64,000 bases of DNA from Rhodothermales bacterium (GTDB lineage Bacteria; Bacteroidota; Rhodothermia; Rhodothermales; Bin80): the NCBI GenBank assembly GCA_022822185.1, contig JAJECE010000011.1, positions 1 through 64,000 on the forward strand, given 5' to 3'. The notes under the pieces are model-generated. The model made no database searches. It saw only the letters and a list, made by a program, of their open reading frames with translations, and was not told the origin of the DNA. A program made the translations under genes and the position numbers. Below are positions 20,327-51,195 of this stretch, one piece after another (the first letter of the stretch is position 1; the number at the start of each line of letters is the position of its first letter).

Positions 20327-20396
20327 ATTTCTTTTTGGACGTAGCGGCGTAAGATACGGAGTTTGACTGATTTTACGAAATCTTCGGGAATCTTGA

Positions 20397-20465
20397 GTAG
20401 CCGGGGGGATTTTCACTCCCCGGCTCTCACAGAACCGTACGTGAAACTCTCGCTTCATACGGCTC
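20397..20465 (-). ncRNA. Group II intron domain V/VI (3' end of an intron on the minus strand)
   Basis: Minus strand: gagccgtatgaagcgagagtttcacgtacggttctgtgagagccggggagtgaaaatccccccggctac; canonical GAGCCGTATG...ACGTACGGTTCT domain V hairpin followed by a domain VI-like hairpin. Confidence 0.8.
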
Positions 20466-20832
20466 GTTTGAAAAGAAAAGTTCCAGACGCACTTCCCCCA
20501 TTCTGCAAAAAATTCGGAATTTTTACAGGGCGCTTACCACCAGGGGAATGTATACACAGGTTTTTACGGGAATCCAGGTCTGGATACCATGCTTCGGCCT
20601 GCTTTGATGCGGATAAACAAGACGGGTAAAAAAAGCATTGATTCAAGCTGCCAGGCTCGTTTGGGAGAGTCCCTGCTTTGGGCTCTAATGTCTTATGGGG
20701 GCAAAAAGGCCGAGTTGCTATCCTCTTACAGAGCTTCCACATCGTGGAACTAGCCGTGCGCCTGAGCATATCTCGGCTACCCGAATCCGCAAGCATTCCT
20801 CACAGAGCATTATGGATTCTCCACGGCCTGTG

Positions 20833-21958: not shown

Positions 21959-23288
21959 ATGCAGCGTAAGGCAACGAAGCAACCAAACGGGAGGACTTCG
22001 GCGCAAAACGCAAAGCCGTTTCCGGTGACCAAACGGCAAGTTTGGGACGCATGGAAACGTGTAAAGGCGAATCAGGGAGGGGCAGGGATTGATGACCAAA
22101 TGATCGCAGAATTTGAGGAAAATCTTGCAGACAATCTCTACAAGATCTGGAATCGGATGGCGTCGGGGAGTTATCATCCAAAGCCGGTTCGGCGGGTGAA
22201 TATTCCAAAGTCAAGCGGAGGCGTTCGACCGCTGGGGATCCCCACCGTGTCCGACCGGGTAGCACAGATGGTGGTGAAGCAGGTACTGGAACCGATCTTG
22301 GAACAGGTATTCCATTCCGATTCGTATGGATATCGGCCGAAGAAATCGGCCCACGACGCGATTCAGCGCACACGTACGCGTTGCTGGCAGCGGGCGTGGG
22401 TTCTGGACATGGATATCAAGGCATACTTTGATACAATTGACCACGACCTTTTGATGAAAGCGGTCCGCAAGCACACAGGGCAGAAGTGGGTACTCTTATA
22501 TATAGAGCGCTGGCTGAAAGCTCCGGTGGTGCATCCAGACGGACGGACGGGAAGAGGCCCGGACGGTCGGCACCCCGCAAGGTGGGGTGATCAGTCCATT
22601 ACTGGCGAATCTGTTTCTGCATTATGCATTTGATCGTTGGATGGAGCTCAACGCTCCAGCCATTCCGTTCGAGCGTTATGCGGATGACATGGTGTGCCAC
22701 TGCACGAGTGAGGCACAGGCGGAAGATCTCTGGAGGGTACTCCAGGAACGATTTTCGGCCTGTCACCTAACCTTACACCCGGATAAAACCCGGATCGTAT
22801 ACTGCAAACAAGACGGTCGGGAGGGCACATATCCTGAAGTGTCGTTTGACTTTCTGGAGTACACGTTTCGGCCTCGCATGATCAAGAGTCGCGTGGGCAG
22901 GATTTTTACTGGGTTTAATCCGGCGGTCAGTCGGAAGGCGGCGAACGCCATACGGGAGACCATTCGCAGTTGGGAGTTGGCTCGTCTGAGTCCTCTGTCC
23001 ATGGAATCTATCGCGGGCAGGATAAATGCCACGGTACGCGGATGGATTGATTACTATGGCGCATTTTTCAAATCGGAGTTGAAACGGGTGTTTCGAAGTA
23101 TAGATGAACATCTGATCCGATGGATGATGCGCAAGTACAAACACTTCCGTGGGCATTGGCACCGGTCATGGCGGTGGTTAAGGAGGATTGCTCGACAAAA
23201 TTCCGGTCTATTTGTGCACTGGGAATTCCTTTATGGTTTACCTTTATTCAATATCCAACGGCTGCATGGTAAGAGCCGTGTGAGTTGA
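21959..23288 (+). pseudogene. ltrA: Group II intron reverse transcriptase/maturase, split by a +1 frameshift near 22551
   Basis: ORF 21959-22633 (IPKSSGGVRPLGIPTVSDRVAQMVVKQVLEP, DSYGYRPKKSAHDAI, DMDIKAYFDTIDHDLL) continues in the next frame as EEARTVGTPQGGVISPLLANLFLHYAFDRWM...FERYADDMVCH... Confidence 0.92.
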
Positions 23289-23342
23289 GAGGCTCACGCA
23301 CGGTTCTGTGAGAGCCGGAGGGTGAAATTCCCTCCGGCTACT
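23273..23342 (+). ncRNA. Group II intron domain V/VI (3' end of + strand intron)
   Basis: gagccgtgtgagttgagaggctcacgcacggttctgtgagagccggagggtgaaattccctccggctac immediately downstream of the RT. Confidence 0.88.
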
Positions 23343-23445
23343 TGACATTCCCAAATCTTCTGATAATAATGGCGACTGCCATCTGCCCATTCGGTATATT
23401 TGCCGGTTGTGCTTGTGGCAGTGACCGAAAATATACTGAATAACG

Positions 23446-25731: not shown

Positions 25732-26134
25732 GATCCCGTAGCTCAGTTGGAAGAGCATCTGACTTTAAGTCATGGAGCCTTATACAGGAAACTGTGTGAG
25801 TGGAGGCTGCTGTATGCTGGAACGCCCTAAAGCCGTCGCTACGTCGTCACACGTAAAAATGCGGCGGATAGATGGGTAATCAGCAGGCAACCTTGAATTG
25901 GGCAATCCAGTCATTTCCCTTTGACCGTGCCGGGTCACAGGGAATCATCCTGTGCCCTGTTCCGCATTGTGCGGATTCAAGAGAGCCCTCAGAGGCCATA
26001 CGCAGCCCACCCCACCCCTTACATGGAAGGGTGAAGAGATGGTCCAGACCACAACATACATGTTGATGGCCGGTGAAAGCCGGTGTGGTAGGTTAATCAG
26101 AGGGTCCCAGGTTCGAGCCCTGGCGGGATCACCA
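25732..26134 (+). tRNA. tRNA-Lys(UUU) interrupted by an intron (exons 25732-25765 and 26093-26134, CCA encoded)
   Basis: Spliced sequence GATCCCG TA GCTC AGTTGGAA GAGC A TCTGA CTTTTAA TCAGA GGGTC CCAGG TTCGAGC CCTGG CGGGATC A CCA folds as a perfect cloverleaf, anticodon TTT. Confidence 0.93.
25766..26092 (+). ncRNA. Group I intron in the tRNA-Lys anticodon loop (after U34), no evident homing endonuclease ORF
   Basis: Core-like elements in order: P-like gccctaaagccg, Q-like aatcagcaggcaacc, R-like cctcagaggccatacg, S-like aagagatggtcc (R GGCCAT complementary to S ATGGTCC as in P7); intron ends in G before exon 2. Confidence 0.85.
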
Positions 26135-26137
26135 TCA

Positions 26138-26224
26138 GCCCGGGTGGCGGAATAGGTAGACGCGCTGTCTTGAGGGGGCAGTGCCCTTACGGGCGTGCTG
26201 GTTCGATTCCAGTCCCGGGCACCA
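26138..26224 (+). tRNA. tRNA-Leu(GAG)
   Basis: GCCCGGG...CTGTC TTGAGGG GGCAG...long variable arm...GGTTCGATTCC...CCCGGGC ACCA. Confidence 0.93.
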
Positions 26225-50230: not shown

Positions 50231-51195
50231 GATGGTAATCCCTGCTCTAAGGAATAATGTATATACTCTTCAATGATGAGGTTGTGGAGTGTACGACAGC
50301 CTTCAGCAAAATCTTCCAGGAAATCCTGTGTATCTGCATCATCCACGGAGGCCTGCAAATTTGTCTCAATTGCAGCGGCTAAGCGCAATGCGTGGCGATG
50401 CGGTGCTCTTCGCGGATGCCGTCCCCCCGCCGGATCTATGCCTGCCAGTAAAAACTGAACGGACCGGGTCGAGAAACTCAGGGAATACGGAATCTCAGGA
50501 TTGGCAATCAAAAAAGCCAGTGCCTGTTCAGACTGAATCATCATTGAATAGGTTCGGCAGTATGCCTCGTAGGCCGCGCATACATGCAGCAGCCCTGCCC
50601 ACGTCTGAGATTTTTTACTAGACGGACAGGACCATGCCTGCAACAGGGCTGTCTGGAGTTGTAAACGCTCTACAAAGCGGCCCAACTCAAAGAACCTCCA
50701 CGCATGATCTCTGGACATTCTGGTCTCAATAACGCCGGATAAATGTCGAAGTCGGTCAACGACCCCCGCAGGCAGCCTGTTGGGACCCTGCCCCCAATAC
50801 TCTGTGAAGTTGCAGTTTCGGAGCCATAGAAAACCATCATTAAGACAGGTCCAAACCCGAACAGGCAGCCAGGGACGAAGCTGTTTGGCATTCTCACGGG
50901 CTTTCGCCCAACTCTGAATAATGGAATCACGATTTTCGGTGTCTTCAATCAGATGAGCCGCAAGCGCAAAGGCATCAGGAACCAGAAAGGCTTCCGCATT
51001 GCCAGTTTCCGTAGGAGATATGGGAGGAGGCTGGCCCAGTGCCGCATACAAGATCCGCCAGCCGTGCGCCAATACATCAACAGGCCGATCAACTAGACGT
51101 GCAAGATGATGGTCCAGTAGACGCGCCGAATGCTCAGCACGCTCAAAATATCGACCCATCCAGTAAAAATCTCCAGCAGCTCTAGCCAGCATCAC
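50227..51195 (-). CDS. Alpha-E domain-containing protein
   Basis: MLARAAGDFYWMGRYFERAEHSARLLD; operon position next to ATP-grasp and transglutaminase as in COG2307/2308 clusters. Confidence 0.88.
   Translation of the reverse strand: MMLARAAGDFYWMGRYFERAEHSARLLDHHLARLVDRPVDVLAHGWRILYAALGQPPPISPTETGNAEAFLVPDAFALAAHLIEDTENRDSIIQSWAKARENAKQLRPWLPVRVWTCLNDGFLWLRNCNFTEYWGQGPNRLPAGVVDRLRHLSGVIETRMSRDHAWRFFELGRFVERLQLQTALLQAWSCPSSKKSQTWAGLLHVCAAYEAYCRTYSMMIQSEQALAFLIANPEIPYSLSFSTRSVQFLLAGIDPAGGRHPRRAPHRHALRLAAAIETNLQASVDDADTQDFLEDFAEGCRTLHNLIIEEYIHYSLEQGLPS

Follow-up and report, generated by a model that had tools for sequence, protein, structure and literature searches.

In a 64,000-nt stretch of Rhodothermales DNA (hereafter the window), a tRNA-Lys(UUU) gene that appears to be functional carries a complete group I ribozyme in its anticodon loop, inserted after U34, and we put the probability of this reading, which draws on comparative sequence analysis, at about 95%. 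The window is contig C22 of an assembly of 3.71 Mb in 132 contigs that is 98.8% complete. The original prediction had this gene interrupted after U34 by a group I intron, and that placement is supported by an RF00028 match over the cut-off, by a proper tRNA on splicing and by the finding of no second tRNA-Lys(UUU) gene.

Structure and detection of the split gene

Two tRNA halves 327 nt apart had been predicted on the plus strand, and the coordinates proved exact. The 5' exon (25732-25765; tRNA positions 1-34, ending C32 U33 U34, with the terminus ...GACTT) is nearly identical in 17 genomes. The 3' exon (26093-26134; positions 35-76) starts with TTAATCAGA and finishes in an encoded CCA. The intervening 327-nt insert (25766-26092) begins with U, or with C in some relatives, which set its boundaries. 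Its last base was expected to be the G of a group I intron (omega-G), and G was present in all 17 sequences. Removal of the insert left a 76-mer that ARAGORN recognized as tRNA-Lys(ttt), with a complete cloverleaf and all stems paired, in agreement with the predicted product of joining the halves after U34. When run with introns off, ARAGORN missed the unspliced gene; with introns on, it found the 327-nt intron, misplaced the insert in the loop and named the tRNA Asn. This identity was dropped, since manual splicing gives tRNA-Lys(ttt).

A check against the Rfam group I covariance model had been proposed, and RF00028 matched the region, searched alone, with 56.1 bits (E 1.6e-13) against a gathering cut-off of 50 bits. 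The same intron scored 40.8 bits in a genome-wide search and was missed by the faster default Rfam scan of the whole window, and the Lys introns of several relatives scored 25.7-43.3 bits under stricter filters. The folding energy of the insert was 3.5 sd below that of dinucleotide shuffles. Open reading frames overlapping the intron on its own strand reach up to 67 aa, and a tRNA-Leu(GAG) gene follows the split gene at 26138. Another locus (L114) is near-identical to the window's split gene and has the same aspS neighbourhood.

Conservation, fold and splice sites of the intron

A DNA search covered 60 relatives, a set that includes the window's genome, with families and genera given as codes. 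The split tRNA-Lys gene was found in 17 of 17 genomes, from 7 genera, of the window's own family within Rhodothermales (f1). In many sister-family genomes the exon matches adjoin, i.e., the tRNA-Lys gene is intact. On this distribution, the intron is inherited through one Rhodothermales family.

The named structure comprises 92 pairs, including four tRNA stems and the P3/P7 pseudoknot, and was aligned across 16 species. Pairs were formed in 98.2% of the 1466 pair cells of the P1-P9 structure, and 21 pairs changed on both sides. None of 500 shuffles reached the observed pairing or the observed count of covarying pairs, and sliding the partners lowered pairing to 34-41%. Since another 16 genomes have this split gene and its pairing so exceeds that of slid partners, the insert in tRNA-Lys(UUU) is real and not a product of chance.

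From 5' to 3' on the plus strand, the predicted fold begins, after P1, with the P2 hairpin (25779-25800), which has 9 bp, a GAAA loop and five covarying pairs. The 5' strand of P3 (GGCUGC, 25805-25810) pairs with GCAGCC at 26002-26007. It is followed by the P4-P5 domain with a P5a/P5b extension (25815-25885), a stretch resembling 23S rRNA introns, and by P6/P6a with a variable loop (25886-25987). The 5' strand of P7, GAGGCCAU (R element, 25992-25999), pairs with the 3' strand AUGGUCC (S element, 26039-26045), and P8 (CACCC/GGGUG) occupies 26008-26033. P9/P9a and the 3' splice site (26048-26092) contain covarying pairs and form a tRNA-intron-like 3' end with similarity to fMet and Arg(U34) introns. 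Each helix was 95-100% paired across the 16 species, with the exception of P5a (88%), and covariation was found in P2, P5a, P5b, P6a, P9 and P9a. Because the core helices barely vary within the family (P4, P5, P6, P7 and P8 are invariant and P3 varies on one side only), covariation is uninformative for these helices, whose support comes from the Rfam match and from similarity to other introns. Acceptor-stem pairs 3-70, 5-68 and 7-66, the strands of which are separated by the intron, changed on both sides, a pattern that links the halves as parts of a single functional tRNA. The insert shows the group I features of P3-P9 with a P3/P7 pseudoknot, a U.G pair in P1 at the 5' splice site and a terminal G. 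As judged from these comparisons, the tRNA-Lys intron is a conserved and very probably active group I intron.

In P1 (25763-25777), exon CUU|U (25763-25766) is predicted to pair with the IGS GGAG (25774-25777), which lies just 3' of the 5' splice site and is invariant in all family members. The U34.G wobble at the splice site (25765 with 25775) was present in 16 of 16 sequences, and the pair at position +1 was U.G in 12 and C-G in 4. The intron starts with C, not U, in four relatives. A cut one base later, after U35, was ruled out, and the 5' splice site placed after U34, because such a cut would give these relatives a UCU anticodon in place of UUU. The P1/IGS option first suggested, GAGU in tgtgtgagtgg, gave way to GGAG, since GAGU runs into the 3' strand of P2, a hairpin that covaries. 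In the folded precursor, pairing of exon CUU|Y with IGS GGAG would present U34.G, and a guanosine bound in P7 would attack after U34. The freed U34 would then attack after the intron-terminal G, and the exons would join as CUU-UUAA to yield the UUU anticodon.

Other introns in the genome, order and phylum

The window's genome also contains a 204-nt group I intron in tRNA-Arg(UCU) (C102, locus L001) and a 267-nt group I intron in tRNA-fMet (C106, L002/L069), with insertion positions, as read from sequence, that fit best after U36 and between U33 and C34, respectively. Splicing by a ribozyme thereby appears to be needed for three different tRNAs of this genome (Lys, Arg(UCU) and fMet).

In sister families f5 and f14 (L214-L226), tRNA-Arg(UCU) is interrupted after U34. 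Twelve of the 13 aligned introns start CUU|C and most have GGAG in the P1 region, so that P1 (CUU|C..GGAGCC) is the same as that of the Lys intron. The sequence CUU at positions 32-34 is common to tRNA-Lys(UUU) (CUU|UUAA), tRNA-Arg(UCU) (CUU|CUAA) and tRNA-Leu(UAA), and one guide sequence can therefore fit several tRNAs. Some of the Arg U34 introns (L223, L225 and L226) are long, at ~630 nt, and some of the long ones hold an ORF, in the P6/P6a region; the sole ORF tested, that of L225, matched a PD-(D/E)XK endonuclease (PDDEXK_5, E 1.2e-30).

Introns of 23S rRNA at ACGGTCCTAAGGT(A) with LAGLIDADG-like genes were found in Rhodothermales and in a further family from the same phylum (L173, L174, L176, L175, L177 and L204). 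The one ORF tested among the Rhodothermales 23S introns matched LAGLIDADG_1 (E 8.4e-14). Three of the introns at this site share an unusual P7, GGCCAU/AUGGUC, with the Lys intron.

Several further observations were made. By eye, tRNA-Asn(GUU) is apparently interrupted by group I introns after U35 at one locus in the order (L126) and two in the same phylum (L201 and L202); this host was not found in the literature surveyed. A stray piece of Lys-type intron (L172; G015:C1, about 50416-50511) covers P3-P6 with 80% identity, with no tRNA half seen nearby, and is possibly a decayed copy. Within the window, RF00029 matched group II intron D5/D6 at 20390-20467 on the minus strand and 21959-23346 on the plus strand (62.8 and 58.5 bits), the latter match coming after reverse-transcriptase-like frames that are seemingly split (ORFs 21959-22633 and 22587-23288).

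Origin of the Lys intron

In BLAST comparisons of Lys introns with the introns of the order, positions ~42-130 matched 23S rRNA introns only in three of four queries, and the last ~60-80 nt matched mainly tRNA-fMet introns in all four. A 23S-intron query over 115 genomes matched 23S and Lys introns only, with no other tRNA intron among many. Segment by segment, the mean z of the Lys intron in P3-P6 was 12.4 for the close and 8.6 for the distant 23S set, as compared with 1.2-2.4 for the tRNA intron classes. At the 3' end, z was 12.8 for fMet, 11.0 for Arg34 and 7.0 for Rhodothermales Leu introns, and 3.4 and 1.7 for the 23S sets. P1/P2 scored highest for Arg34 introns (5.3; 23S, 1.5). The R element scored 8.3 for 23S and 7.6 for Arg34 introns and is common to both putative sources.

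A tree of the core (86 columns) grouped Lys and 23S introns at 100/99; Arg34 introns came next, and the remaining tRNA introns stood apart (100/100). In a tree of the 3' end (34 columns), Lys introns fell among the majority of tRNA introns (99/100). The segment extraction patterns failed to capture 12 of 67 introns. The segments are short, and AU tests rejected neither alternative: p was 0.22 for a core in which Lys was constrained to join tRNA introns and 0.42 for a 3' end in which it was constrained to join 23S introns.

The resemblance to the Rhodothermales 23S LAGLIDADG introns at ACGGTCCTAAGGT(A) extends over P3-P6 with P5a/b, the R element CCTCAGAGGCCATACGC and the S element GAGATGGTCC. 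These introns differ in having an rRNA host, their own P1/P2 and P9, and a LAGLIDADG gene between R and S, and the Lys intron does not belong to their family over its whole length, its P1/P2 and 3' end being unlike 23S. Neither does it share the classic tRNA intron core seen in Leu, fMet, Arg36 and Ile2 introns (J3/4 CAAATTC(G/A)GGG, AATCC(C/T)GAGCCAAGC and AGAGACT). Derivation of the whole core from 23S introns alone is weakened for R by the Arg34 introns that have the same R element, but not for P4-P5.

Collectively, these data suggest that the Lys intron is a probable hybrid, with a 23S-rRNA-type core and tRNA-type ends, at the CUU| site. On balance we lean towards a history in which a chimeric ribozyme, with a 23S-type core (P3-P7) and the ends of a tRNA intron (P1-P2 and P8-P9), colonised the CUU| site present in both tRNA-Arg(UCU) and tRNA-Lys(UUU) and came to be needed by an entire family for all its lysine tRNA. 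The hybrid would have arisen at the CUU| site that tRNA-Lys(UUU) has in common with the sister-family tRNA-Arg(UCU), whose intron has the same P1, and its history probably includes a host shift.

Direct movement of the intron from tRNA-Arg(UCU), via reverse splicing into the matching CUU| site, is a tenable but secondary explanation. Rhodothermales tRNA-Arg(UCU) introns resemble the Lys intron in P1 (CUU|Y..GGAG), in position U34, in the 3' end and, in many, in P7 (GGCCAU/AUGGUC), and some Lys introns have C at +1, as most Arg introns do. The Arg introns have a different host and a shorter P5, and some hold a PD-(D/E)XK ORF. However, those of the sister families are without the P5a/b extension and differ in P4-P5, and tRNA-Arg(UCU) of the window's own family has a different intron, after U36.

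It is rather unlikely that the Lys intron is an ordinary tRNA-type intron whose core resembles 23S introns by convergence or through retained ancestral sequence, with no recombination. The AU tests on short segments leave room for such an origin, and the R element GAGGCCATACGC is present in tRNA-Arg(U34) introns as well. Nevertheless, P3-P6 are matched much more closely by 23S introns than by any of the tRNA introns compared, the P5a/b extension is absent from the other tRNA introns aligned, and the selectivity of the 115-genome query also speaks against such an origin.

Relation to known introns

The insertion point after nucleotide 34 had been equated with that of the tRNA-Leu(UAA) intron. 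The position is indeed the same, with CUU likewise upstream of the splice site, and Rhodothermales Leu introns are similar at the 3' end, as scored above. The two differ in host and core: Leu introns have a CAAATTC(G/A)GGG-like J3/4 and the other classic motifs, and the Lys core is without them. Because the Lys core falls outside the tRNA-Leu/fMet type, this likeness in position probably reflects the common CUU at 32-34 and not close kinship.

The plastid trnK-UUU intron has the same host, tRNA-Lys(UUU), but is a group II intron and so a different class of ribozyme. It contains matK (PMC2694360). A group I intron has been claimed in tRNA-Lys(CUU) of Gloeocapsa sp. PCC 73106 (PMC5733544); the amino acid of the host is the same, but the anticodon is CUU, not UUU, and the lengths of 22-49 nt are far too short for a group I core. 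Published under the group I label, the cyanobacterial inserts of this length, which lie in tRNA-Arg, -Gly and -Lys (PMC5733544), are too short for group I ribozymes and may mislead surveys. Hosts in tRNAscan-SE 2.0 include tRNA-fMet of cyanobacteria and tRNA-Ile2 of Acidovorax and Burkholderia (PMC8450103). The fMet, Ile2 and Azoarcus tRNA-Ile introns are, like the Lys intron, self-splicing introns of the anticodon loop, and Rhodothermales fMet introns resemble it at the 3' end, but splice position, core sequence and host differ.

The original prediction held that lysine might be a new host and listed several bacterial tRNA hosts. No credible earlier bacterial tRNA-Lys group I intron was found in the open-access literature, although subscription journals could hold one; the list itself proved too short, with tRNA-Arg(UCU), as well as Leu-UAA, reported as interrupted in Beggiatoa/Thiomargarita (PMC4853749) and with the apparent Asn(GUU) hosts. 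"Lys" is absent from the text of a review from 2014 on group I introns of bacteria (PMC3984707), and Lui et al. (PMC8172020) refer to tRNAs with group I introns but do not specify which. Thus, tRNA-Lys appears to be a new host tRNA for bacterial group I introns, with a core unusual for a tRNA intron.

Probable dependence of the family on splicing

By pattern search, an intact tRNA-Lys gene with either anticodon was found in none of the 17 f1 genomes, and the same pattern recovered one in each of eight sister-family controls. Any other tRNA-Lys was likewise absent from the tRNA lists of the window's genome and of a one-contig relative (G011), so the proposed check for another intact tRNA-Lys(UUU) in the genome came back empty. 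G011 is also without tRNA-Ile(GAU) and tRNA-Ala(UGC) and is therefore not perfectly complete, and most f1 genomes are fragmentary assemblies, in which a missed second tRNA-Lys is conceivable. Cells of f1 probably have no lysine tRNA other than the spliced product. Since no other tRNA-Lys gene was detectable in the 17 genomes, splicing is probably essential in this family and needed for every lysine codon.

A dead gene, with the intron or tRNA decayed and another tRNA-Lys doing the work, is highly improbable: standard tRNA finders do miss the split gene and draft assemblies may hide a second tRNA-Lys, but the exons are almost invariant over 7 genera, the acceptor stem has compensatory changes and the 17 genomes yielded no other tRNA-Lys. 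Just as improbable is removal of the insert by protein enzymes, as in archaeal or eukaryotic tRNA splicing, or a split tRNA made of the two halves, with the group I fold unused; the anticodon loop is the usual site of enzymatic tRNA introns too (PMC4390854), but a complete group I core is conserved, with P7, the splice-site U.G and the terminal G, and self-splicing is the mode described for introns in bacterial tRNAs (PMC4390854).

With this intron, lysine joins the tRNA identities known to host group I introns in bacteria, and the case illustrates how a single intron type can occupy more than one tRNA by way of a short common sequence, CUU at 32-34. Should the mosaic prove real, it would represent a natural exchange of domains between rRNA and tRNA group I introns. 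Automatic tRNA annotation of such genomes will give no lysine tRNA, or the wrong one. For the family itself, this is a clean example of a cell whose whole supply of lysine tRNA appears to hinge on a ribozyme.
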